Both the position numbers and the translations under genes were made by a program. Below the pieces are notes generated by a model, which had not been told where the DNA came from, did not search any database, and saw only the letters and a list, made by a program, of their open reading frames with translations. This document shows, piece after piece, positions 1 to 10,525 of a DNA stretch of 13,784 nucleotides. The stretch's first letter is position 1. Every line of letters begins with the position of its first letter. The stretch is from Nitrospirales bacterium. Lineage in GTDB: Bacteria > Nitrospirota > Nitrospiria > Nitrospirales > UBA8639. The DNA lies in contig JAJDBO010000308.1 of NCBI GenBank assembly GCA_029261305.1, forward strand, positions 1-13,784. Reading direction: 5' to 3'.

Positions 1-2
1 GA

Positions 3-467
3 TGGACCGGATTGCTGATTGTGGCCATAGTGTTAACCGGGTTAACCTATAGTCATTATCAACAACATTTAGCGACGCTGTCTCCCAGCCAGGCAAAGAC
101 GCAAGGCCTGAACCATGAAGTCCGAGTTTTGGGAATGGTTCAAGGCGGGACATTAGAAGGCAATGTCGAGAGTGGAGACGCCACGTTTGCCTTGGGGGAA
201 AACGACTCGACTATTCCCGTTCATTATCATGGACCACCTCCAGATAATTTACGCGAACTGAAGACTCTGATCTTGATTGGGAAGTGGAATGCCACGGATA
301 ATATCTTTGAGGCTCGTGATATCGGCCTAGTCACGAATTATGGCTTTGTCGTTGGAGCATATTTGATCGGCCTGATTCCATTGGCAATTTTTTTGTTTGC
401 CATGAGTCGGCGGGTAGGACTGTTGTATGAAGAAATTAAAGCATCAAAACTCTATCAGGAAGAATAA
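3..467 (+). CDS. CcmE-like OB-fold protein with CcmD-like C-terminal membrane tail (5' partial)
   Basis: The reading frame is open to the left edge, so the true start is probably outside; the first usable start inside is a TTG at 12. From that TTG, residues 1-11 end a membrane segment and residues 20-107 line up with the following CcmE: 'SPSQAK' against 'TPSEVK', 'VRVLGMV' against 'VRVGGMV', 'TIPV' and 'GPPPD' against 'GIPPD'. This suggests the same OB fold. The heme-binding HxxxY of CcmE is absent, with 'IGLVTNYGF' in its place. A second hydrophobic segment (about 111-131) followed by a basic/acidic helix ('SRRVGLLYEEI') looks like the small subunit CcmD, which holds CcmE to the CcmABC transporter. 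I infer a tandem duplicate of CcmE that lost heme attachment and carries the CcmD role. It could also be annotated simply as a second CcmE. It sits 3 bases before ccmE. Confidence 0.6.
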   Translation, partial: WTGLLIVAIVLTGLTYSHYQQHLATLSPSQAKTQGLNHEVRVLGMVQGGTLEGNVESGDATFALGENDSTIPVHYHGPPPDNLRELKTLILIGKWNATDNIFEARDIGLVTNYGFVVGAYLIGLIPLAIFLFAMSRRVGLLYEEIKASKLYQEE

Positions 468-470
468 ACC

Positions 471-926
471 ATGGGTTCAAAAAATAAAAAAATCGGGATT
501 ATCGTCAGCCTTGCTCTAGTCGGTGGCGCCTTAGCCTACCTTGCCCTCGGGAACTTTGGAGAGAACCTGGTGTATTTCTTTACCCCATCCGAAGTAAAGG
601 CGTTTGACTCCGGATACTATCAAAAAAAGGTGCGCGTCGGAGGCATGGTTGTGGAAGGCAGCATGGAAGCCTATGCTGATCGCCTGGGAATGACTTTTGA
701 ACTCACGGATGGTGAAGCCACGATTCCTGTGACCTTTGAAGGTATCCCGCCTGACTTGTTTAAAGAAGGGCAAGGTGCCGTGGTTGAAGGCTTCTGGACC
801 GGGCAACATAAATTTCAATCCAACCTCATCATGGCCAAACATTCCGAAGACTACATGCCCATTGAGCTCAAACGTGCGGGAGTAGAACTTCCTCGCAAGG
901 ACTTCATGAAATCCCTGGTTCAATAG
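471..926 (+). CDS. ccmE: Cytochrome c maturation protein CcmE (periplasmic heme chaperone)
   Basis: CcmE covalently binds heme from CcmABCD on the periplasmic face and delivers it to the CcmFH lyase. The 151-residue length is normal for the family. Residues 8-26 form the single N-terminal membrane anchor, followed by the OB-fold domain with 'TPSEV' (38-42), 'VRVGGMV' (54-60) and 'TIPVTFEG' (84-91). The heme-attachment motif 'MAKHSEDY' is intact, giving His124 as the covalent ligand and Tyr128 as the axial one (HxxxY, the ordinary form and not the CxxxY variant). The start is the ATG at 471, with AGGAAG at 457-462 eight bases upstream. It lies 3 bases after the preceding CcmE-like gene and 21 bases before ccmF, clearly in one operon. 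Confidence 0.95.
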   Translation: MGSKNKKIGIIVSLALVGGALAYLALGNFGENLVYFFTPSEVKAFDSGYYQKKVRVGGMVVEGSMEAYADRLGMTFELTDGEATIPVTFEGIPPDLFKEGQGAVVEGFWTGQHKFQSNLIMAKHSEDYMPIELKRAGVELPRKDFMKSLVQ

Positions 927-947
927 AACCACGAACCCCTATAAATC

Positions 948-2897
948 ATGATCATTGAAATCGGACATTTTTCCGTTGTCATCGCTCTTGTACTCTCGGC
1001 ATTTGGCATCGTCTCGTCCTTTCTGGCGCTCCAGACTCGCAATGTGGATTGGGTGCGAGTCGGACGCATCGCGCTCACACTGATCTTTATTCTCCTGTCC
1101 ATCGGCATGGGGTCGTTAATTTATTCGTTCCTCGTTCGTGACTTTTCGGTCCACTACGTTGCTGCCACGTCGAATTCGCAACTGCCCTTGTTTTATACCG
1201 TGGCTGCGGTCTGGGGTGGCCATGAAGGTTCACTCCTCTTATGGGTCTTTATTCTGTCCGCATTTAGCACGATTGCCGTCTGGCTCCATTGGCGCACACA
1301 ACCAGCGATCATGCCCTATCTGATTGGAATGGAATGCCTCATCATCATGGGCTTCTTGCTCTTGATCCTGTTTCTCTCAAGCCCCTTTGATCGACTCATA
1401 CCAACTCCCGCCGATGGGAAAGATTTAAATCCCCTACTCCAAGACCCTGCCATGGTCATGCATCCACCGATGCTCTATATGGGATACGTGGGATTTTCGA
1501 TTCCCTTTTCCTTTGCCATGGCTGCATTATTTTCTGGTCGACTGGGAGAAGAATGGATCAAGGTCACACAACGTTGGACGATCTTTGCTTGGCTCTGCTT
1601 GACCACTGGAATTTTGATGGGCGGCTACTGGGCCTACTATGAATTGGGCTGGGGAGGGTATTGGGGCTGGGACCCTGTGGAAAACGCCTCGTTTATGCCA
1701 TGGCTCGTTGGGACGGCCTTTCTGCATTCCGTGATGGTTCAAGAGAAGCGGAAGATGTTTAAAGTCTGGAACCTTTTCCTGATTATCGTCACGTTTTCAC
1801 TCTCGCTCATTGGCACGTTCCTGGTGCGTAGCGGTGTGCTCACGTCGGTTCATACCTTTGCGACTGATCCTGAGCGCGGACTGTATATTTTAATTTTTGT
1901 GGCAACAGTCATTGGCATTGCTTTTGGTACGTTAATCTTACGAGCCCACAAACTGAAAAGTCAGGTCGAAATGGACTCTATGGTGTCGCGGGAGTCAGTA
2001 TTTCTTTTCAATAATTTATTCTTTCTGGTCGCAGCGGCCACGGTCTTTTTGGGCACCCTCTATCCTCTCATGGTTGAAACCTGGCAGGGTTCAAAAGTCA
2101 CAGTTGGGCCTCCGTACTACAATACCGTGTTCATGCCTGTCGCTCTTGGACTCTTGTTTATGATGGGCGTCGGACCCTATATTCCTTGGCGCAAAGCGTC
2201 CGAAGCCAGCATAAAGAAAAACTTTTTGGTCCCTCTAGCCGTGGGACTTGTTTCCACGATCGTGCTGTTCGCCCTAGACATTCACAGCGTCTTTGCCTTG
2301 GCTGGCACCTTTGTTGTGGGGTTTGCTGGCGCAGCCATTGCTATCGACTTTGGAAAGATTTCGGCGCTGTATTCTCGACGAGAATCTAGCAGCCTATTGA
2401 AGGGCGCCCTCTCGGCGTTCACCTCCAATCAACGTCGATATTCTGGAATCCTGACCCATGTCGGCGTGCTCGTCCTGGTTGTCGGAATTATTGCCTCGAC
2501 GGTTTACCAAACAGAAAAAGTCGTCTCACTCAAGGTTGGCGATGAGTTCGTCATTGATGAGTATCGCATGAAACTCGAACGCATCCACGAAGTGAGGGGC
2601 AAAAATTGGAGTGCACAAGAAGGCGTGTTTGAAGTCTACGAAGGCGATCACTTGCTCACAAAATTACGCCCCCAGAAACGCGTGTACGATGCTTCACAAA
2701 CCCCGACGACTGAATCGGCCATTTACGCGAAAAACATGGGACATATTTTTCTGACCATGCCAGATGTCTCACCTGAAGGCGTGGCAGTCGCTAGAGGCGT
2801 GATTAATCCACTGATCCTCTGGGTATGGGGCGGTGGTGGAATTATGGGGCTTGGGGTGTTATTGAATATTTTCCGCCCAAGAAAAAAAGACGAATGA
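948..2897 (+). CDS. ccmF: Heme lyase subunit CcmF (cytochrome c maturation)
   Basis: CcmF is the large inner-membrane subunit of the System I heme lyase; it takes heme from CcmE and, with CcmH, ligates it to the CXXCH of apocytochrome c. The 649 residues match the family length. The protein is polytopic, and the tryptophan-rich WWD signature lies at about 235-252 ('GWGGYWGWDPVENASFM'). The four histidines known from the E. coli protein appear at nearly identical positions: His172 in 'MHPPMLYMG', His260 before 'SVMVQEK', His302 in 'SVHTFATD' and His504 in 'GILTHVG'. A soluble periplasmic stretch (about 520-617) precedes the last membrane helix (620-641). No clear Shine-Dalgarno precedes the ATG at 948, so translation may be coupled to ccmE. 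All key residues are present and I see no truncation. Confidence 0.97.
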   Translation: MIIEIGHFSVVIALVLSAFGIVSSFLALQTRNVDWVRVGRIALTLIFILLSIGMGSLIYSFLVRDFSVHYVAATSNSQLPLFYTVAAVWGGHEGSLLLWVFILSAFSTIAVWLHWRTQPAIMPYLIGMECLIIMGFLLLILFLSSPFDRLIPTPADGKDLNPLLQDPAMVMHPPMLYMGYVGFSIPFSFAMAALFSGRLGEEWIKVTQRWTIFAWLCLTTGILMGGYWAYYELGWGGYWGWDPVENASFMPWLVGTAFLHSVMVQEKRKMFKVWNLFLIIVTFSLSLIGTFLVRSGVLTSVHTFATDPERGLYILIFVATVIGIAFGTLILRAHKLKSQVEMDSMVSRESVFLFNNLFFLVAAATVFLGTLYPLMVETWQGSKVTVGPPYYNTVFMPVALGLLFMMGVGPYIPWRKASEASIKKNFLVPLAVGLVSTIVLFALDIHSVFALAGTFVVGFAGAAIAIDFGKISALYSRRESSSLLKGALSAFTSNQRRYSGILTHVGVLVLVVGIIASTVYQTEKVVSLKVGDEFVIDEYRMKLERIHEVRGKNWSAQEGVFEVYEGDHLLTKLRPQKRVYDASQTPTTESAIYAKNMGHIFLTMPDVSPEGVAVARGVINPLILWVWGGGGIMGLGVLLNIFRPRKKDE

Positions 2898-2938
2898 TGT
2901 TTCGTGATTCCCTAGAGGACTTGAAATAGTTTTTTACG

Positions 2939-3493
2939 ATGACTCGAACCACACAAATTACTATTCTTGTTGTGCTCCTCGCTTTACTCTCTTTGTTCTA
3001 CCAAGGGCTGTGGGGCGACCCACGACATATTCCACCAGTCCTCGTCGGTACCCAAGCTCCTATTTTCCAAGGGCCTGATGTTGAATCAGGCGAACCACTT
3101 TCCTCTGAACAATTTAAAGGCAAAGTGATCCTGGTGAACTTTTGGGCTTCTTGGTGCCAAGAATGCAAAGTTGAGCATGAGGACCTGTTACGACTTCACG
3201 CGGAATTTAAAGACCATCCGGAGTTTGTGATGCTGGGCATCAATTACCAAGATGAAGTGCCAAAAGCACGCGCCTATTTAAAACAATACGGGTCCAGCTT
3301 CCCGCATATGCGTGACGTCAAAGGGGCCTTGGCCATCGACTTTGGCGTATACGGCGTACCCGAAACATTCGTCATCGATCAAAAAGGCGTGATTCGTCAT
3401 AAATGGATCGGCCCGATCGTGGGTGATGTCTACACCAATCTCACGAAAAATGTTCTCACGCCGTTACTCAAAGGCACGGAGCCCACGACCTAA
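2939..3493 (+). CDS. ccmG: CcmG/ResA-type thiol:disulfide oxidoreductase
   Basis: This is a membrane-anchored periplasmic thioredoxin that keeps the heme-binding cysteines of apocytochrome c (and CcmH) reduced. Residues 6-22 form a single uncleaved anchor or signal segment. The TlpA/ResA-like domain follows, with 'VNFWASWCQEC' giving the redox pair Cys73/Cys76 (WCQEC; the canonical CcmG/ResA centre is more often WCxPC or WCExC). The cis-proline loop is 'YGVPETF' (Pro141). The 184-residue length suits CcmG, DsbE and ResA alike; the ccm operon position favours CcmG. The ATG at 2939 has a poorly placed AGAGGA about 20 bases upstream, and the 41-base gap from ccmF is the longest inside this operon. 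The next gene begins at the base after the stop codon. Confidence 0.9.
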   Translation: MTRTTQITILVVLLALLSLFYQGLWGDPRHIPPVLVGTQAPIFQGPDVESGEPLSSEQFKGKVILVNFWASWCQECKVEHEDLLRLHAEFKDHPEFVMLGINYQDEVPKARAYLKQYGSSFPHMRDVKGALAIDFGVYGVPETFVIDQKGVIRHKWIGPIVGDVYTNLTKNVLTPLLKGTEPTT

Positions 3494-3958
3494 ATGTCAC
3501 GTCTATTGACCATGATCATCCTGCTGTGCTTCGCCTTCCCCATTGGAGGCTTGGCGGAAACTGTGGATGAAACAGAGATTGATGAACGGGTACGTGCGAT
3601 TGCAAAAAACCTTCGATGTACGGTCTGCCAAACGGAAAACATTTGGGAATCTGGGGCTCCACTTGCGCATCAAATGCGAGACGTAGTGCGAGAACGAGTC
3701 ATCCTCGGGCATTCAAATGAAGATATCTTGATATACTTTCACAGTCGCTACGGCGACTACATCATGATGGAACCGCCAAAGCATGGTTATAATTGGCTGA
3801 TCTGGTTAGGCCCGTTTCTTTTGTTACTTGGAGGTGGAGTGTTATTAGCGAAGGAAATCAAAGGGTGGGTGACCCGAACACCTGCACCGCCTACCGAAGT
3901 TCTACCACCCCTTGATGAAGAATCTCGACGGCGAATAGAACAAGAACTCCAGCCCTAA
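3494..3958 (+). CDS. ccmH: Cytochrome c-type biogenesis protein CcmH
   Basis: CcmH presents a redox-active cysteine pair to the apocytochrome CXXCH and works with CcmF and CcmG. A signal peptide spans residues 1-21 (likely cut after 'GGLA'). The family signature 'LRCTVCQTENI' places Cys42 and Cys45; the usual form is LRCxxCQNQ, so the second half differs slightly. A helical domain leads to 'YGDYIMMEPP' (86-95), and one membrane segment lies at about 101-119, followed by a Pro/Glu-rich cytoplasmic tail. At 154 residues it is the short CcmH form; the TPR part found in E. coli CcmH is here a separate downstream gene. The ATG directly abuts the ccmG stop codon (no intervening base), which points to translational coupling. 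Confidence 0.94.
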   Translation: MSRLLTMIILLCFAFPIGGLAETVDETEIDERVRAIAKNLRCTVCQTENIWESGAPLAHQMRDVVRERVILGHSNEDILIYFHSRYGDYIMMEPPKHGYNWLIWLGPFLLLLGGGVLLAKEIKGWVTRTPAPPTEVLPPLDEESRRRIEQELQP

Positions 3959-3977
3959 CCTCTCCCAACAAATTCTC

Positions 3978-4904
3978 ATGTCGATTATTTTCGTTATTGT
4001 CTGCGTCACCATCCTCATCGGAGTCACCCTCGCCATTTCCTTGCCGTTTTGGAAAAGAGATCCGACGACGCCCAACCTCATAACGCAGGAGGCGGAGGAA
4101 GATCAGGAACGGGCAGACCTTTCTGTTGAACGGGAGGTCCTACGACAATCCCTACAAGAACTTGATGTTGAGCTGGCTCAAGGACGATTGGAACAAGAAG
4201 ATTATGATCGACTCAAAGCCACGGATGAACGACGCTTAATTGGAGTTCTAGATCGGCTTGAGGTCTTGGCCACATCTACTGCTCAAGCCTCTTCTGCAGC
4301 GGAAACAGCAAAGAAAGGGAATGCATGGGGATCGGCCATTGCCGCCAGCTTGGTCGTGTTGGTGTTATCGGTGGGGATTTATAGTTTCCTGCAATGGCGC
4401 ACCATTAATAGACTCGTCGATGTTCAAGCGGAGATGGCTGGCCAACAACAAGCACCCGACCCACGAGAAATGGTCGCCAGGCTAGAAGCCCGGCTCAAAG
4501 AAAATCCGGATGATGTGTCAGGACAATTGATGGCCGGTCGATCCTATATGGCTTTAGACCGTGTTGATGATGCAAAAAAATCCTATGCAAAGGTCTTAGA
4601 GCTTGATGCTCGAAATCATGAAGCGAATTATAATTTGGGCGTCATCATGATCGAAGAACGAAAATTCGACGACCCCAAAGTCTTTGAAGCGGCCCTGGTT
4701 CATTTCGACAAAGTGTTAGTCGATCTGCCCAATCAACCCGGCGTCAATTGGTACAAAGGCTTGGCCCTGTGGTACCTGAAGCGCTATCGCGAAACCGAAG
4801 AATTCTGGGCCACCGCCCATAAAAACCTCAAACCCGGCAGCCAAGACGCTGACTTCGTCAAACAAGCCCTCGCCAAACTCCGCGAAGGCGAGACACCGTT
4901 TTAA
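3978..4904 (+). CDS. ccmI: CcmI-like TPR protein (apocytochrome c chaperone)
   Basis: CcmI binds apocytochrome c and brings it to CcmFH. Residues 2-24 form the first membrane segment, followed by an acidic coiled-coil cytoplasmic loop (about 39-92). A second membrane segment follows (about 118-138), and then a periplasmic TPR domain (about 160-300, e.g. 'AGRSYMALDRVDDAKKSYAK' and 'LGVIMIEERKFDD'). Two helices, a leucine-zipper-like loop and a TPR tail is the CcmI layout. At 308 residues it is shorter than the roughly 400-450 of many proteobacterial CcmI proteins, so the TPR array is compact. It begins 19 bases after ccmH and is the last gene of the operon. The name rests on architecture and position more than on strict motif identity. 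Confidence 0.82.
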   Translation: MSIIFVIVCVTILIGVTLAISLPFWKRDPTTPNLITQEAEEDQERADLSVEREVLRQSLQELDVELAQGRLEQEDYDRLKATDERRLIGVLDRLEVLATSTAQASSAAETAKKGNAWGSAIAASLVVLVLSVGIYSFLQWRTINRLVDVQAEMAGQQQAPDPREMVARLEARLKENPDDVSGQLMAGRSYMALDRVDDAKKSYAKVLELDARNHEANYNLGVIMIEERKFDDPKVFEAALVHFDKVLVDLPNQPGVNWYKGLALWYLKRYRETEEFWATAHKNLKPGSQDADFVKQALAKLREGETPF

Positions 4905-4937
4905 AAAATTAAATTTAGGAAAATACTTCATTTGAAC

Positions 4938-4958
4938 ATTGCCAGGCTAGAAGGCAAT
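4938..4958 (+). terminator. Weak candidate terminator of the ccm operon
   Basis: ATTGCC (4938-4943) and GGCAAT (4953-4958) form a perfect 6-bp stem around a 9-base loop, and the stem end merges into a short T run (4958-4961). It lies 34 bases after the ccmI stop, where an operon terminator is expected. The short stem and only four Ts make it a poor intrinsic terminator. Confidence 0.35.
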
Positions 4959-5040
4959 TTTCAATGGTAGGGAATTGTTAAAGTAACCAAAATTTTTGGC
5001 CCCAGTTCTCATACTCCTTCCAAGAATCCCCAGTCACACT

Positions 5041-5160
5041 TCTGCCGGCACCCAGGCTATGGACCTTGAGACAAGAGTCGCTCAGGCCCTTCTCACAGAG
5101 CAACCTCCCACCATGCAGATCCCGGAGTCTTCGGACGGAACCCCACCTTCTCATATTGGA
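5041..5160. other. GC-rich block of unknown nature with hairpin potential
   Basis: Counting bases gives about 58% GC for 5041-5160, against about 43% for 4981-5040, 33% for 5161-5220 and 25% for 5221-5280. On the minus strand GGGCCTGAG (complement of 5081-5089) can pair with CTCAAGGTCC (complement of 5061-5070), with one bulged A and one G-U pair, around a 10-base loop. The plus-strand version has an A-C mismatch at the G-U position, so folding favours a minus-strand RNA. The 8-mer TTCTCATA occurs on both sides (5006-5013 and 5148-5155). It could be a small RNA, a dispersed repeat, or a scar of a mobile element. I do not recognise it. Confidence 0.35.
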
Positions 5161-5329
5161 CTTTTTGTTTGAACAGCTTACCTGCCCAAAATTCCTACTT
5201 TCCTTAGGTACTTTCTTTAAATAAAAAAATTGTTTCACTGACAATAAGGTTAAATCCCAATATCCTGTAATAGTAAATACCTTAAGAATCCAATTTTTGA
5301 TGTTGGCAACTAATATGAATTTCCCCTCT

Positions 5330-5359
5330 AATCATCTGCAGCCATAGCAGCTGATGATT
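5330..5359. repeat. Inverted repeat upstream of the CHAT gene
   Basis: AATCATC (5330-5336) and GATGATT (5353-5359) are perfect complements, and an inner TGC/GCA pair can extend the stem. No T run follows on either strand, so a terminator is unlikely. It lies about 135 bases upstream of the CHAT gene start and could be an operator or simply chance dyad symmetry in AT-rich DNA. Confidence 0.3.
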
Positions 5360-5491
5360 TAAAAAGCCAAATCCTTGTGCAGTTATTTTACAATCAAAAT
5401 TTAGGGATTAGCCTAGACAGGAACCTTCAGTAAGCGTAAATTCGCAGACTTATTAGGCAAATATATCTACCAATTTACCTAGGCAACGCTA

Positions 5492-8260
5492 TTGTTAAAA
5501 TTTTCAAAAAATATACGTACATTGCTCCTTTGGATCTGCTTCATCTTAGTTACTCCCCTGTTCTTTGGTTGTACATCTATTAACCAACTCATTGAATTTC
5601 AACGTGCACGGGAACTGATAGGTCAGGAACGGTATTATGAGGCCGAGCCATATGCAAAGAAGTTAATAGACCTCACCAGACACACAAGGCTTCAGAGTCC
5701 TCTACTTTCTACTGAAGCCATGAATTTGTTGGCACTCATTTATGCCAACCAAGGGAAACTTGCACGGGCGGAGGAACTTTATAAAGACAGCTTGGCCATT
5801 CGTCAGAGAAAATGGCCCAATGAAAATGAGCAAGTTTCAGACTCTTTAACCAATCTTGGCCTTTTATATACAAACTTTGGGAAGTACGAAGAGGCAGAGA
5901 GACTTTTAAATGAAGCGCTTAGGATTCGAGACAAAATTTTGTCTTCCAATCACCCAAAAATAGGGGCAGCATTCAACAATTTAGGTAATTTTTATTTTAA
6001 AATTGGTCTCATGGTAAAAGCCGAGCGTTATTATTCACGTTCCATAGAAATATTGGAAAACGCTACAGACAATGAAGCAGCTATCACTGCCCCCCTTAAC
6101 AATCTTGCAGATATTTACAGAAATACTGGCAGGGCAGGTAAGGCATTAGAATTGTCTAACCGGGTTTTAATAATTCTGAATGCTAATCCTTCTGAAAACG
6201 ACCTAAAGATAGCTTCTACTTTAGATGACCTGGGAGGACACTACTTTAAATTAGGTGACTATGCCAAGGCCGAATTCCACGTTAAGAGAGCCTTAATAAA
6301 AGTGGAACAAAATTATGGGTCAGATGCCCCATACGTTGCTTTCCTCTTAGGGCACCTCGCTGAAATCCGCCGTCTGCAAAATCAGTATTCTGAAGCACTC
6401 GATCTGTATAACCGTTCAATAATAATTAATAAAAGAAGTTACGGAGAAGATCATTTTGTTACTGCAAATAATTATCACAACCTTTCCCTTCTGTATAAAA
6501 CAAATGGGAAATATAAAAAGGCTCTAGAATTTGCCCGTAAATCTACACAACCCTTTCGATGCTGCTCAGACTCACCAAACCAAAAGAATTTACAATTCTT
6601 TGCATCCAAACGACGTGACCTTGAAGATTTCTTTATTAACCAAGTTGATATATTATATTTATTCATGGATTCGAAAGACTCTATTTTACAAGATCCGACT
6701 CTTATGGATGAGTCTTTTAAAGTATCCCAACTCGCTCATCATTCAGAAGCGGCTAAGGCCTTAACCCGGATGGCGGCTCGTTTTGCTGTAGGTGATGTCG
6801 GTCTTTCTAAAATGGTTCGGGAGCATCAAGATGCTGTTAGGCGTTATCGCCATCTTGAAGAAAGGTTATCTGATGAGATTAGTAAAAACCCAGCCGAAAG
6901 AAATCAGGATGAAGAAACCTACTTGCGGAATGATCTAAAGGAAATAACAGAAAGAGTAGAAAAACTAAATAAAGAATTGGAAAATCATTTTCCAGAGTAT
7001 ATAGAGTTGGTTAGCCGAGAACCGCTTTCGTTAAAAAGTACGAAGAAACTGCTTGCTCCAGATGAAGCCCTCTTATGCTATCTTGTAACAAAAGAAGCTA
7101 CTTTTTTATGGGTAATTCGTCGAGATAACGCCATTGTTAAACGTATTGGAGTACCCCACGATCATTTTTCTCAAAGGATTATGAAGTTGAGAGCTGGTCT
7201 TGATTTACAAGGTAATCAAGGAATTCCCATTTACAATCTAAAAGAGGCCTCCCAATTGCATGAAGATCTCGTCAGTCCTGCTGCACCCTTGTTAGAAGGC
7301 ATAAACCATATTCTTCTAGTTCCAGATAGTCCTCTTGAAAGTCTACCTTTCGGAATACTAATTAAAGATGAACCAAATTTTGAAGTTGATGAATCTCAAG
7401 ATATAAGAGATTTCCGGACAGCCTCCTGGATGTCTCGTGACTATTCAATATCAGTCTTTCCGTCGGTGAGCTCCCTTAAGTCCCTACGCAGAGTAGTAAA
7501 ACCTTCCAAAGCAAGTCACGACTTTATTGGTTTTGGCAATCCACTTCTTATGGGAAAATCACACTCCCCTCTAAATTATTCAGTGGATCAGCTCTTTACC
7601 CCAAGTGGGGTCGCAAATGGTGAGATCATCCGCCAATTTCCAGCATTACCGGACACAGCTAAGGAAGTTAACGACATCGCGATAGCATTGAACGCTGATC
7701 CAGACAAAATATTCTTACAAGAACGGGCAACTGAACTCCAAGTCAAAACTTCAGACCTCTCCGACTACCGAGTTATTGCTTTTGCCACTCATGGACTTAT
7801 AGCAGGAGAGCTCATGGGATTGGCGGAACCAGCGTTAGTGCTTACCCCTCCGGCAGAGGGATCAAAAGAAGATGACGGTCTACTTACCGCAAGCGAAGTG
7901 GCTCAGTTAGAATTGAATGCAGACTTAGTAATCCTTTCAGCATGTAACACTGCTGCTGCTGATGGATCGCCTGGAGCAGAAGGGTTTTCTGGCCTAGCTA
8001 GAGCTTTTCTCTATGCCGGTGCTCGTTCCGTTTTGGTTTCACATTGGTATGTGTCGTCTGATGCCACAACCCGTTTAACAACGAAAATATTTAGGTTAAA
8101 GGCCCAAAATCCATCATTGACATACACACAAGCTCTAAAACAGTCTATGGCCTGGCTTTCTGATTCAACACTCCCAAGATACGCCCATCCCAGCTATTGG
8201 GGACCGTTTTCTATTGTGGGTGGGATTCCCCACCAACTAGAAACCTATGCAGAAAACTAG
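5492..8260 (+). CDS. TPR-CHAT protease-like lipoprotein
   Basis: This 922-residue protein joins a TPR sensor or scaffold to a CHAT domain (caspase/HetF-associated peptidase fold). The N-terminus is a lipoprotein signal: basic 'KFSKNIR', a hydrophobic core, and lipobox 'FFGC' with Cys27; the +2 Thr suggests outer-membrane sorting. About seven kinesin-light-chain-type TPR units with 40-44-residue spacing cover residues 40-356 (e.g. 'NLGLLYTNFGKYEEAERLL', 'NNLADIYRNTGRAGKALEL'). A charged helical or coiled-coil linker lies at 435-500, and the CHAT domain at about 515-915. The catalytic pair is visible: His767 in 'IAFATHGLIAGE' and Cys818 in 'LVILSACNTAAADG', followed by the family-typical 'GLARAFLYAGARSVLVSHW'. 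The start is a TTG at 5492 with AGG at 5481-5483; no in-frame ATG lies before the signal core. CHAT domains are mostly known from cytoplasmic proteins, so an exported one is notable. The substrate is not evident from sequence. Confidence 0.9.
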   Translation: MLKFSKNIRTLLLWICFILVTPLFFGCTSINQLIEFQRARELIGQERYYEAEPYAKKLIDLTRHTRLQSPLLSTEAMNLLALIYANQGKLARAEELYKDSLAIRQRKWPNENEQVSDSLTNLGLLYTNFGKYEEAERLLNEALRIRDKILSSNHPKIGAAFNNLGNFYFKIGLMVKAERYYSRSIEILENATDNEAAITAPLNNLADIYRNTGRAGKALELSNRVLIILNANPSENDLKIASTLDDLGGHYFKLGDYAKAEFHVKRALIKVEQNYGSDAPYVAFLLGHLAEIRRLQNQYSEALDLYNRSIIINKRSYGEDHFVTANNYHNLSLLYKTNGKYKKALEFARKSTQPFRCCSDSPNQKNLQFFASKRRDLEDFFINQVDILYLFMDSKDSILQDPTLMDESFKVSQLAHHSEAAKALTRMAARFAVGDVGLSKMVREHQDAVRRYRHLEERLSDEISKNPAERNQDEETYLRNDLKEITERVEKLNKELENHFPEYIELVSREPLSLKSTKKLLAPDEALLCYLVTKEATFLWVIRRDNAIVKRIGVPHDHFSQRIMKLRAGLDLQGNQGIPIYNLKEASQLHEDLVSPAAPLLEGINHILLVPDSPLESLPFGILIKDEPNFEVDESQDIRDFRTASWMSRDYSISVFPSVSSLKSLRRVVKPSKASHDFIGFGNPLLMGKSHSPLNYSVDQLFTPSGVANGEIIRQFPALPDTAKEVNDIAIALNADPDKIFLQERATELQVKTSDLSDYRVIAFATHGLIAGELMGLAEPALVLTPPAEGSKEDDGLLTASEVAQLELNADLVILSACNTAAADGSPGAEGFSGLARAFLYAGARSVLVSHWYVSSDATTRLTTKIFRLKAQNPSLTYTQALKQSMAWLSDSTLPRYAHPSYWGPFSIVGGIPHQLETYAEN

Positions 8261-8267
8261 ACTAGTT
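8255..8267. repeat. Inverted repeat carrying the stop codons of both convergent genes
   Basis: AACTAG (8255-8260), a single A, then CTAGTT (8262-8267) form a perfect inverted repeat. The left TAG (8258-8260) ends the CHAT gene on the plus strand, and the right CTA (8262-8264) is the TAG of the minus-strand gene. No terminator fits between them, so each transcript must run into the other gene. Confidence 0.7.
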
Positions 8268-9191
8268 ATCCTGCCATTTTCTGTATATACCATCACTACT
8301 TTTTAGATTTGGGGAATGATCAAATAAAAAATCTTCAAATGAATTTTTGTGATCTATACTAAAGTCTGGTTCAAAAGGATACCAATCGTACCCAATTACT
8401 TCATTCCTATAATTATTATTCGCGCCTCGCACTTCTTCGATAATATCTTTGGGCAGAAAAGCAGGGGAAAACGCAATTGGTAGAATTTCCTTGCTTTCAA
8501 GAAGGATTCCTCTTTTTACAGCGTATCCAATCTTTGTATCAGCATTTGCATCAATAATCTGTCCTTTGAACCGTTTCAGCTTTGAAAATTCAAGCCTCAA
8601 ATCTGCGAGGGCTCTAGCATCAGCAGAATGTAAGAGTCCTGTATAGATCAGAGGGCGGCCAACCAAAAGTCGCCCAATAATTACAATTTTTTTATTTACC
8701 TTATCACGATCAACTGGGGGACCTGTCATATAATCTTTGAGATAAGTACATTGATCACTTAAATTTCTTTGAAGATCTACAGCCGCTACCCTCTGGATTG
8801 ATACATCGGAAAATCTGATTAAGGAAACATTGTCTATATTGGCTGAAGCAGAGCTAACGAAAAACCTTGAAAGGTTCAACGATAATTTAGCATCTCCTTT
8901 GTTAATAATTATTACCTGAGGAAGTGTGGATGGTACAGGAGGGAGTTCACTTAACTTAGGAAAACACTTTTCCGCTCTATCTAAAAACACTCCATCGGCC
9001 ACGTTATAAACATCTCCAACTTTTTGGTCCTCTGGCAGAAAAATGGGAATAAGATTGAGACGCTTGAAATATAAAATCAGGGTTTTTTCATAGTCCTCCT
9101 GCCCATTAGTTTTAATACGAGCGGCAAAGGTGATATTCACTGAATTTAATACAAATGAAAATAATATTAGCAGAATAATTATCAAGTTCAT
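8262..9191 (-). CDS. Secreted protein of unknown family, convergent with the CHAT gene
   Basis: I do not recognise this 309-residue protein with certainty. An N-terminal signal peptide (residues 1-23, very hydrophobic, likely cut after 'ITFA') predicts export to the periplasm or beyond. The mature part has no further membrane segment and only two cysteines (Cys76, Cys148), which could form a disulfide. It contains alternating beta-like stretches: 'PQVIIIN' (91-97), 'VSLIRFSDV' (122-130), 'KKIVIIGRLLVG' (167-178), and a lysine-rich section with strands around 200-240 ending in 'LPIAFSPAFL'. The charged/aromatic tail (about 248-309) looks flexible. The order of elements resembles, faintly, bacterial gasdermins, but those lack signal peptides and no defining motif is certain. 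AGGAG (complement of 9203-9207) lies 11 bases from the ATG. It is convergent with the TPR-CHAT gene with one base between the stop codons, so partnership is possible but not shown. Confidence 0.7.
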   Translation of the reverse strand: MNLIIILLILFSFVLNSVNITFAARIKTNGQEDYEKTLILYFKRLNLIPIFLPEDQKVGDVYNVADGVFLDRAEKCFPKLSELPPVPSTLPQVIIINKGDAKLSLNLSRFFVSSASANIDNVSLIRFSDVSIQRVAAVDLQRNLSDQCTYLKDYMTGPPVDRDKVNKKIVIIGRLLVGRPLIYTGLLHSADARALADLRLEFSKLKRFKGQIIDANADTKIGYAVKRGILLESKEILPIAFSPAFLPKDIIEEVRGANNNYRNEVIGYDWYPFEPDFSIDHKNSFEDFLFDHSPNLKSSDGIYRKWQDN

Positions 9192-9313
9192 TTTGAATTA
9201 TTCTCCTAGAATCAAAGACCCTAATAAATAATGACTGTTTAAAGAATTGGTGATTTGCGAAGGATTAGACCAACCAAGAAGCCAGCGGTGGTAGAAGGAT
9301 AAAGAATCTAAAC

Positions 9314-9433
9314 TTAACCAATCACACTCACTGCTGCCTTCGCCAGCCCTACAGGAATTTGATTAAACCAATTCCCAAAGGGGCATGATTTTCGATAGAG
9401 TTGGGATAGTGTTACAATTTTCGCTGTATCCCC
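9314..9433 (-). pseudogene. Possible gene remnant: 39 open codons without a start
   Basis: On the minus strand a frame bounded by TAG (complement of 9434-9436) and TAA (complement of 9314-9316) reads with protein-like composition, e.g. 'LYRKSCPFGNWFNQIPVG' then 'LAKAAVSVIG' at the end. There is no ATG, GTG or TTG at its beginning and no ribosome-binding site, so it cannot be a whole gene. It could be the last piece of a decayed gene or a chance open frame; 39 codons is within chance expectation. I cannot name a family. Confidence 0.2.
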
Positions 9434-9614
9434 CTACAAAATAGGGTAAAAAATTCAATTGCAGATATATCAATGAACCATTATCATCAAATATCCCAAG
9501 GAACAAACGACTCTATTTTAAATATTAATGAATTAAATTACGATTCATAATTTCCCGTGAACCTAGGTACTAAATTTTCTTTTGTCAATATTAGTGATGG
9601 ATACAATTATTATT

Positions 9615-9620
9615 GGAGGT
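9615..9620 (+). promoter_or_regulatory. Ribosome-binding site deciding the start of the first lipoprotein
   Basis: GGAGGT sits 6 bases before the ATG at 9627, an optimal spacing. It outranks the upstream TTG (9582) and the downstream ATG at 9687, which has no Shine-Dalgarno sequence even though it would give a shorter, more typical lipoprotein signal. Confidence 0.75.
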
Positions 9621-9626
9621 ATTCAA

Positions 9627-10040
9627 ATGAGAAAGAAACGCAGGCAATTCATAAAAGAATTTAATTTAGAAAATGCGTGTTCTCAGATGAAACTAATAAC
9701 TCTAATAATACTTGGCTTATCTCTTGTCGGCTGCAGCTCTGACATAGCTAATCGTTGCTATAAATGTGGAAAATTTCCACCAAAAAATAAAGAAGAAGTT
9801 TTGATTCTTGACTCTAAACCAACAAGGCCTTTTGACGTTATTGCCGATTTCCAGTCTAGGGGAGAAACTCCTAGTGATTTGCAAGAGAAGGCTGCTGCGA
9901 TTGGAGCTGATGCGGTAATAGTTTCCCATGTTGGTGGGTTTTATTCACGTGATGAGGAATGGGCATCTCAGGACAGGTACAAAGGGGAATTTCACGATCA
10001 CATTTTAGGCACGGCAATTAAATTTAAGGAGGAGAACTGA
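9627..10040 (+). CDS. Small lipoprotein with YbjQ/RcsF-like fold and CxxC motif
   Basis: This is a 137-residue protein from the ATG at 9627. It has a basic, unusually long n-region (about 20 residues, 'MRKKRRQF...'), a hydrophobic core and lipobox 'LVGC' with Cys36. Directly after the anchor comes 'RCYKCGKF', a CxxC pair (Cys44, Cys47) that could bind metal or form a disulfide. The remaining domain has the order 'EEVLIL...PFDVIADFQSRG...LQEKAAAIGADAVIVS', the alpha/beta pattern of the YbjQ/RcsF/DUF4156 group of small envelope proteins: a strand, a 'GADAV' turn after a helix, and a strand. A shorter start at 9687 is possible. The stop is one base before the next gene, so the two are co-translated. 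The family assignment comes from pattern only; function unknown, perhaps envelope sensing. Confidence 0.72.
   Translation: MRKKRRQFIKEFNLENACSQMKLITLIILGLSLVGCSSDIANRCYKCGKFPPKNKEEVLILDSKPTRPFDVIADFQSRGETPSDLQEKAAAIGADAVIVSHVGGFYSRDEEWASQDRYKGEFHDHILGTAIKFKEEN
10026..10034 (+). promoter_or_regulatory. Strong ribosome-binding site for the second lipoprotein
   Basis: AAGGAGGAG lies inside the last codons of the first lipoprotein gene, 7 bases before the ATG at 10042. It is the strongest Shine-Dalgarno sequence in the window and implies high expression of the second lipoprotein. Confidence 0.75.
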
Positions 10041-10041
10041 A

Positions 10042-10389
10042 ATGAGACTTAAGTCGGTTTTTATCTTAACTCAATTACTGTTACTAACAGCCTGTGCTTC
10101 AGTTGATGTAACAAAGACAAATAAAGGGTTTTACGAACCAACTAATCCTGCAGAAGTGCAAATTTTAAAGACATTGCCAGACAATAAATATGTAGAACTC
10201 GGGACAGTTACCGTATCTGGGTTTGACAGCCAGGAAACAGCAAAAATGCATAATGCTATCCGGGCAAAATCGTCAGCTCTAGGGGCAACTGCGGTCGTTC
10301 TCACCGAAGAAGGATTGATCCCTGCAGGATTTGGGTCTTATAAGCGATGGGCAACAGGCGTGGCTATTCGGGTCACTGAAAGCCAATAA
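10042..10389 (+). CDS. Small lipoprotein with YbjQ/RcsF-like fold
   Basis: This 115-residue protein has a clean lipoprotein signal, with lipobox 'LTAC' and lipidated Cys18; the +2 Ala suggests outer-membrane localisation. The mature domain reads 'NPAEVQILKTLPDNKYVELGTV' followed by a helix 'AKMHNAIRAKSSALGATAVVL' (the run is interrupted by no gaps; key elements are the P..V start, the LG turn and the ALGA helix end). This is the same order as in the preceding gene and as in the YbjQ/RcsF/DUF4156 lipoproteins. It lacks the CxxC of its neighbour. The two genes are one base apart and look like diverged tandem copies. No partner signalling genes of the Rcs type are in the window, so a stress-sensing role is only inference. 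Alternative: a generic outer-membrane lipoprotein of unknown function. Confidence 0.75.
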   Translation: MRLKSVFILTQLLLLTACASVDVTKTNKGFYEPTNPAEVQILKTLPDNKYVELGTVTVSGFDSQETAKMHNAIRAKSSALGATAVVLTEEGLIPAGFGSYKRWATGVAIRVTESQ

Positions 10390-10424: not shown

Positions 10425-10442
10425 AATCAATAAATATTGATT
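10425..10442. repeat. Perfect AT-rich hairpin between the lipoprotein pair and tRNA-Leu
   Basis: AATCAAT (10425-10431) and ATTGATT (10436-10442) are perfect complements around a 4-base loop. It touches the 3' end of the tRNA gene, where transcripts from both sides must stop. It lacks a following T run on the plus strand and is almost all A-T pairs, so it is not a convincing intrinsic terminator; it may act in tRNA 3' trimming or be incidental. Confidence 0.35.
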
Positions 10443-10525
10443 GGTGCCGAAGCCGGGACTTGAACCCGGACGGGTTTCCCCACACGCCCCTCAAACGTGC
10501 GCGTCTGCCATTCCGCCACTTCGGC
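10442..10525 (-). tRNA. tRNA-Leu (anticodon GAG)
   Basis: The minus strand folds as a complete 84-base class II tRNA. The acceptor stem is GCCGAAG/CTTCGGC, followed by discriminator A and an encoded CCA. The anticodon stem is CACGT/GCGTG (one G-U pair) around loop TTGAGGG, which gives anticodon GAG for the Leu codons CUC and CUU. A long variable arm with GUGGGGAAACCCGUC-type pairing and the T arm with GTTCAAGTC complete the structure. A discriminator of A and a long variable arm are both expected for bacterial tRNA-Leu. The 3' end faces the accessory stretch at 4905-10389, the usual geometry for an integration site, though I see no repeated tRNA end there. Confidence 0.97.

Follow-up and report, generated by a model that had tools for sequence, protein, structure and literature searches.

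A predicted exported gasdermin-fold protein encoded next to a TPR-CHAT protease gene in a Nitrospirales bacterium

Introduction

In known bacterial gasdermins (bGSDMs), a C-terminal peptide of about 20 amino acids (aa) maintains the inactive state, a protease encoded in the neighborhood cleaves behind Leu or Arg, and in most cases the N terminus carries a palmitoylated cysteine (PMC9612521, PMC9079055). CHAT proteins are counted among the caspase-like proteases that neighbor bGSDM genes (PMC9612521). Here, we describe two adjoining genes in a 13,784-nucleotide stretch of a Nitrospirales genome (assembly GCA_029261305.1, contig JAJDBO010000308.1; this whole stretch is called the window below). 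One encodes a predicted exported protein with a gasdermin fold (positions 8262 to 9191, minus strand), and the other encodes a predicted exported TPR-CHAT protease (positions 5492 to 8260, plus strand).

The pair resembles bGSDM loci in several respects. As in the bGSDMs 7n50, 7n51, and 7n52, the predicted fold would span nearly the whole mature chain (approximately 260 to 300 aa), the C-terminal tail, here a candidate lock, is short and there is no large repressor domain, and the gene of a caspase-like protease lies next door. Unlike in known bGSDMs, both partners carry export signals. Furthermore, the mature gasdermin-like protein lacks an N-terminal cysteine for palmitoylation and has an invariant cysteine pair instead, whereas two canonical bGSDMs used for comparison (L105 and L110) begin with Met-Cys. 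It also differs in having no match to the bGSDM profile, and the structural alignments, made with the model of a relative, show 7 to 15% identity.

TPR repeats ahead of a caspase-like CHAT protease are likewise described for Csx29, the TPR-CHAT protein of the type III-E CRISPR complex Craspase. Unlike for Craspase, no CRISPR gene was recognized in the window, and the TPR-CHAT protein encoded there carries an export signal. In fungi, the genes of gasdermins and HET-Q2-like proteases form comparable two-gene clusters, and about 17% of those proteases have a CHAT domain (PMC10989679). These pairs differ in being eukaryotic, and neither "signal peptide" nor "periplasm" is mentioned in that review. 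The CDC-like proteins, which show little sequence similarity to gasdermins, are unlike the window protein in being bicomponent and in having their activation loop near the N terminus; bGSDM-like proteins fused to immunoglobulin-like domains are cited in the same article (PMC11952106). Among the literature matches listed, titles and abstract openings gave no account of an exported bacterial gasdermin, which does not prove its absence from print.

Results

The gasdermin-like gene is an ATG-started open reading frame (ORF) for 309 aa, preceded by an AGGAG ribosome-binding site 11 nucleotides upstream of the start codon (positions 9203 to 9207, minus strand). An earlier note on this DNA had quoted three strings from the protein, and all three were found in the ORF. 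The window protein matched no family in Pfam, NCBIfam, or PADLOC and no PDB entry by sequence, and PHROGs yielded a single match with an E value of 0.13. In a search of 5.8 billion proteins, no other protein was found at an E value of ≤1 (the query was alone among 1,453 candidates), and a scan of genome contigs returned nothing.

Relatives were detected by two other routes. A tblastn search of plasmids revealed a clear relative on an Agrobacterium vitis plasmid (E value of 2e-18; 74% of the window protein covered), and a protein search from this relative returned 17 proteins. Rhizobial names are attached to two of these, and P0005 shares 99% identity with the query. When 395 Nitrospirota genomes were searched in six frames, P0002 was the single credible relative (BLASTP E value of 2e-6); 11 of the 395 genomes matched at an E value of ≤0.1, and one of these 11 (G353) was scored by the family hidden Markov model (HMM) at an E value of ≤1. 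The family alignment comprises 18 sequences: the window protein, P0002, and the 16 returned proteins that remained after the disrupted fragment P0020 was left out. A 15-sequence HMM that excludes the window protein, P0002, and P0021 gave the window protein 121 bits, whereas none of 1,500 shuffled sequences exceeded 7.5 bits. P0002 scored 10 to 14 bits with three models in which the window protein was included, and each of its 1,000 shuffles scored lower.

Further searches added no members. A search of the protein database with a two-sequence alignment found the two queries only, P0002 and profiles as queries detected nothing related among PDB sequences, phage and viral-contig searches found no relative, and plasmid searches with P0019 and P0021 found the A. 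vitis locus only. Matches were absent from the genomes of five close relatives and from 394 Rhizobiaceae genomes. G353 was the one match both among 175 genomes of its own family and among 186 genomes of the class of G001. With the A. vitis protein as the query, one of 397 Rhizobiales genomes matched, in a short ORF that adjoins a FixG-like ORF and has no family-HMM score. With P0002 as the query, 41 of the genomes behind the CcmF loci gave one weak match (E value of 0.057), in an ORF that looks by eye like an M23-type peptidase. The positive control of the genome search was recovered (2 of 2), although the model contained these two sequences. Since the genome searches were nearly empty, we conclude that members of the family are uncommon in the sampled genomes.

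The fold was assessed on a structure model of the relative P0005. When this model was compared to the PDB with Foldseek, ranks 1 to 7 were all bacterial gasdermins; with VIA, ranks 1 to 16 were all gasdermin entries, residues 42 to 306 of the model being aligned with residues 2 to 260 of 7n51. The model thus displays the twisted antiparallel sheet and the topology of the gasdermin superfamily. A fold search of BFVD gave no match at an E value of ≤0.001. At the level of profiles, the PADLOC bGSDM model matched 2 of the 18 members, P0002 (E value of 1.2e-8) and P0017 (E value of 0.0062). The precomputed annotation of P0002 contains PF26164.1, probably the bacterial gasdermin family. Altogether, the gasdermin membership of the family rests on the fold, on P0002 as a bridge, and on context, and not on a direct sequence match. 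The gasdermin interpretation proposed in the earlier note is supported: a predicted fold unlike the gasdermin sheet was to speak against it, and the fold predicted for the relative is that of a gasdermin.

In the P0005 model, a loop lies between the strands at residues 262 to 269 and 278 to 286, and a C-terminal helix follows. By this model, the 53 aa after Gly256 of the window protein (positions 8265 to 8423, minus strand) are a candidate autoinhibitory tail with a predicted cleavage loop at its start, and we infer that the tail may be removed by cleavage there.

Both partners probably are exported, as judged from their sequences. Residues 1 to 23 of the gasdermin-like protein (positions 9123 to 9191, minus strand) form a predicted signal peptide, in which a 12-residue hydrophobic stretch (mean Kyte-Doolittle hydropathy of 3.52) is followed by an A-x-A-like end, TFA/AR. 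A hydrophobic stretch (1.42 to 3.52) precedes the same region in all 14 aligned members that have an N terminus. The CHAT partners from the window and from A. vitis also have signal-like N termini, with hydropathies of 2.62 and 2.93. For comparison, the canonical bGSDMs L105 and L110 reach 0.37 and 1.07, three soluble proteins of the window reach 0.49 to 1.04, and two Ccm proteins of the window reach 2.87 and 3.62. The protein had been called secreted from its sequence, and this view probably holds. The signal peptide, which the note took as an argument against a standard gasdermin, has equivalents in 14 of the 18 aligned members, and signals are present in both CHAT partners. We also considered a cytosolic start at an internal Met of the rhizobial members. 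It was rejected, since the next Met of the window protein does not occur before residue 150 and the preceding region is hydrophobic in the 14 members.

Downstream of the predicted cut, each of the 18 members has exactly two cysteines, which fall into the same two alignment columns. In the window protein, they are Cys76 (positions 8964 to 8966, minus strand) and Cys148 (positions 8748 to 8750, minus strand), its only cysteines. Additional cysteines occur in 11 of the 18 members, every one of them inside the signal-sequence region. Because the protein appears to be exported, a disulfide is the natural reading of this pair, and a Cys76-Cys148 bond is probable.

The neighboring TPR-CHAT gene starts with TTG and encodes 922 aa with TPR repeats and a CHAT domain (Pfam E value of 5e-48). 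A predicted signal sequence (positions 5492 to 5572, plus strand), recognized by sequence and hydropathy, ends in the lipobox-like motif FFGC (Cys27), which is atypical at -3 and -2 by the usual rule. The predicted catalytic residues are His767 in an FATHG motif (positions 7790 to 7792, plus strand) and Cys818 in an SACNT motif (positions 7943 to 7945, plus strand). Both motifs are common with the A. vitis homologue, and the predicted catalytic role of the two residues is that of the His and Cys in CHAT and caspase families. With CHAT domain, His, and Cys, the protein has the sequence features of a CHAT protease.

The two window genes are convergent, and one base separates their stop codons. 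In A. vitis, the TPR-CHAT gene comes after the gasdermin-like gene and overlaps it by 20 bp; this locus is present in three plasmid records, which represent one lineage. The TPR-CHAT proteins from the window and from A. vitis are 27% identical over 935 columns (E value of 9e-82). Thus, as in bGSDM loci, a protease gene adjoins the gasdermin-like gene in both places. Co-occurrence with TPR-CHAT genes had been suggested as a check of the pairing and is borne out in part: the adjacency in the window is real and recurs in A. vitis, and it does not extend to P0002. A family whose homologues never lie near CHAT genes, which the note named as refuting its reading, is not what was observed.

We also looked at five further plasmid CHAT loci with flanks of 4 to 6 kb, which were picked among 40 listed of 198 records. 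No family member was found there by an HMM search of 102 loci and the window. One of the plasmid loci analyzed, from Pseudosulfitobacter (L098, positions 1 to 7002), encodes in a row a caspase family protein, a serine protease, two hypothetical proteins, and a CHAT protein, and the HMM detected no family member in it.

The gene pair lies with two small putative lipoprotein genes (positions 9582 to 10040 and 10042 to 10389; no family match above the cutoff) in a stretch with 36 to 43% GC, while the flanks have about 50%. By eye from the translations, the flanks are ccm genes on one side and a stretch with HAD, queE, and leucyl aminopeptidase genes on the other. On its right, the AT-rich stretch meets a tRNA-Leu(gag) gene (positions 10442 to 10525, minus strand), a possible island boundary. 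No repeat of at least 10 bases of the tRNA-Leu end, as expected for an att site, was found at positions 4850 to 9700. The CcmF protein of the window is 81% identical to those of two Nitrospirota metagenome-assembled genomes and 60 to 63% identical to those of three from Candidatus Troglogloeales, which makes an uncultured member of the Nitrospirota the most likely host. P0002 is encoded in a Nitrospirota stretch (L092, positions 9207 to 15269) together with Hypoth_Ymh, AbiJ_NTD5/Abi_C, and SIR2-pAgo proteins, which is likely a defense island.

Independently of the family, a search of 198 Nitrospirota and 199 Rhizobiales genomes with the bGSDM model yielded matches in three genomes. L106 (positions 838 to 2211, minus strand; genome G082) encodes a 457-aa lipoprotein-like protein, the N-terminal part of which matches the model weakly (E value of 1.1e-5). 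Its additional C-terminal part of more than 200 aa contains no Pfam family above the cutoff. From its sequence, it is a candidate for a second, different exported gasdermin. L107 (positions 1465 to 2256, minus strand; genome G651) encodes 263 aa with a signal-like N terminus and a weak match (E value of 1.4e-4) limited to profile positions 142 to 232, and its Pfam Gasdermin match (E value of 0.21) is below the cutoff. No CHAT gene was found in 18.5 kb around the L106 protein or in 3.3 kb around the L107 protein. The third match, L105 (positions 1501 to 2307, plus strand; Nitrospirota genome G123), is a canonical Met-Cys bGSDM. The neighboring ORF looks by eye like a metallophosphoesterase gene and not like an obvious protease gene, and no CHAT gene was found in 12 kb of L109.

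Discussion

We favor, at a little better than an even chance, the view that the two genes form an extracytoplasmic gasdermin system that serves an altruistic death response. Sec-type signals would bring both products to the periplasm, the protease perhaps as a lipoprotein. There, the small protein would fold as an autoinhibited gasdermin, with its C-terminal tail (strand and helix) as the lock, and one disulfide, formed after export, probably would stabilize it. The TPR part of the protease would sense something in the envelope, whereupon the CHAT part would cut the gasdermin at the loop ahead of the tail. Once freed, the domain would assemble as a beta-barrel pore in a membrane to which the periplasm gives access, the inner membrane being the most likely one, with insertion from its outer face. 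As a result, the cell would be permeabilized as an antiphage or other altruistic death response.

Several observations weigh against this view. The Foldseek TM-scores of the P0005 model are modest (0.38 to 0.47 for 7n50 and 7n51; root mean square deviation of 6.4 to 8.2 Å), and a single-sequence AlphaFold2 model of the window protein itself was useless (predicted local distance difference test score of 31). The window protein gave no match to the bGSDM profile PADLOC PDLC02986 at E values up to 10. When the family was aligned by hhalign with the two canonical bGSDMs, one 58-column stretch lined up, but not significantly (score of 17.2 and E value of 0.19 without P0002; score of 20.5 and E value of 0.066 with it); the five highest scores among 100 column-shuffled controls were 24.6, 21.4, 20.1, 19.4, and 19.4, so that at least five exceeded 17.2 and two exceeded 20.5. 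P0002 is a weak relative: with the 15-sequence HMM, it was neither above its shuffles nor in the top ten. Regarding export, the signal is absent in 4 of the 18 aligned entries (P0008 and P0011 begin at the cut, P0019 begins nine residues ahead of it, and P0021 begins inside the protein), and the hydropathy of the A. vitis gasdermin-like protein, 1.43, is little above that of signal-free proteins (≤1.07). Hydropathy points to membrane targeting and does so equally for a cleaved signal and a membrane anchor.

The pairing itself is also called into question. P0002 has no CHAT gene in the 19 kb covered, and CHAT adjacency was observed in two of three independent contexts, a count that leaves out the contexts of 16 of the 17 returned homologues (P0006 to P0021). 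Moreover, the CHAT domain of the window is 38 to 43% identical to those of four plasmid proteins without a family member beside them and 37% identical to that of A. vitis. Because it is closer to these unpaired domains, the proteases of the window and of A. vitis are not a special sister pair, a two-gene system becomes less likely, and a coincidental CHAT neighbor becomes likelier.

An unlikely alternative is an offensive function, in which the protein would be released and, once cut, would attack neighboring bacteria or a grazing host, as described for CDC-like proteins, with the TPR-CHAT protein as its maturation protease. However, a lipoprotein-like protease would remain with the producer, and P0002 is encoded near defense genes. 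Furthermore, no secretion or immunity gene was recognized among four scanned window proteins or among 15 features around the A. vitis pair, the extent of the search made.

We give a slightly lower probability to a merely coincidental CHAT neighbor, with another activator and with both genes as cargo of one AT-rich island. This would suit their convergent orientation, which is not that of an operon, and their position in an AT-rich stretch (36 to 41% GC) with a tRNA gene at its end. It would equally suit P0002 and the five other CHAT loci, where the partner is missing, and the proximity of the window CHAT domain to four of these five. It does not readily explain why the same kind of pair, with export signals on both proteins and overlapping genes, is present in the unrelated A. 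vitis lineage.

Quite improbable is a gasdermin fold without lysis, in which a protein forming few or no pores would release periplasmic cargo, repair the envelope, or have a structural role under CHAT control: the fold is no proof of pores, the pore formation of pejvakin is unclear (PMC9612521), and the family is very divergent from the studied bGSDMs, but CHAT adjacency in two phyla fits activation by cleavage.

We would give somewhat less than an even chance to a broader and more tentative idea. The pair may represent an extracytoplasmic branch of pyroptosis-like immunity, composed of an exported, disulfide-held gasdermin and its protease, in which a breached envelope, as with phage adsorption or DNA entry, would lead to self-puncture from the periplasmic face. 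P0002 and the L106 and L107 proteins would be further branches. If a gasdermin and its protease both act outside the inner membrane, the site of trigger sensing and the leaflet under attack would be different, and so would the producer's means of self-protection while the proteins are made and exported. An exported group of gasdermins would then also escape the bGSDM model used here.
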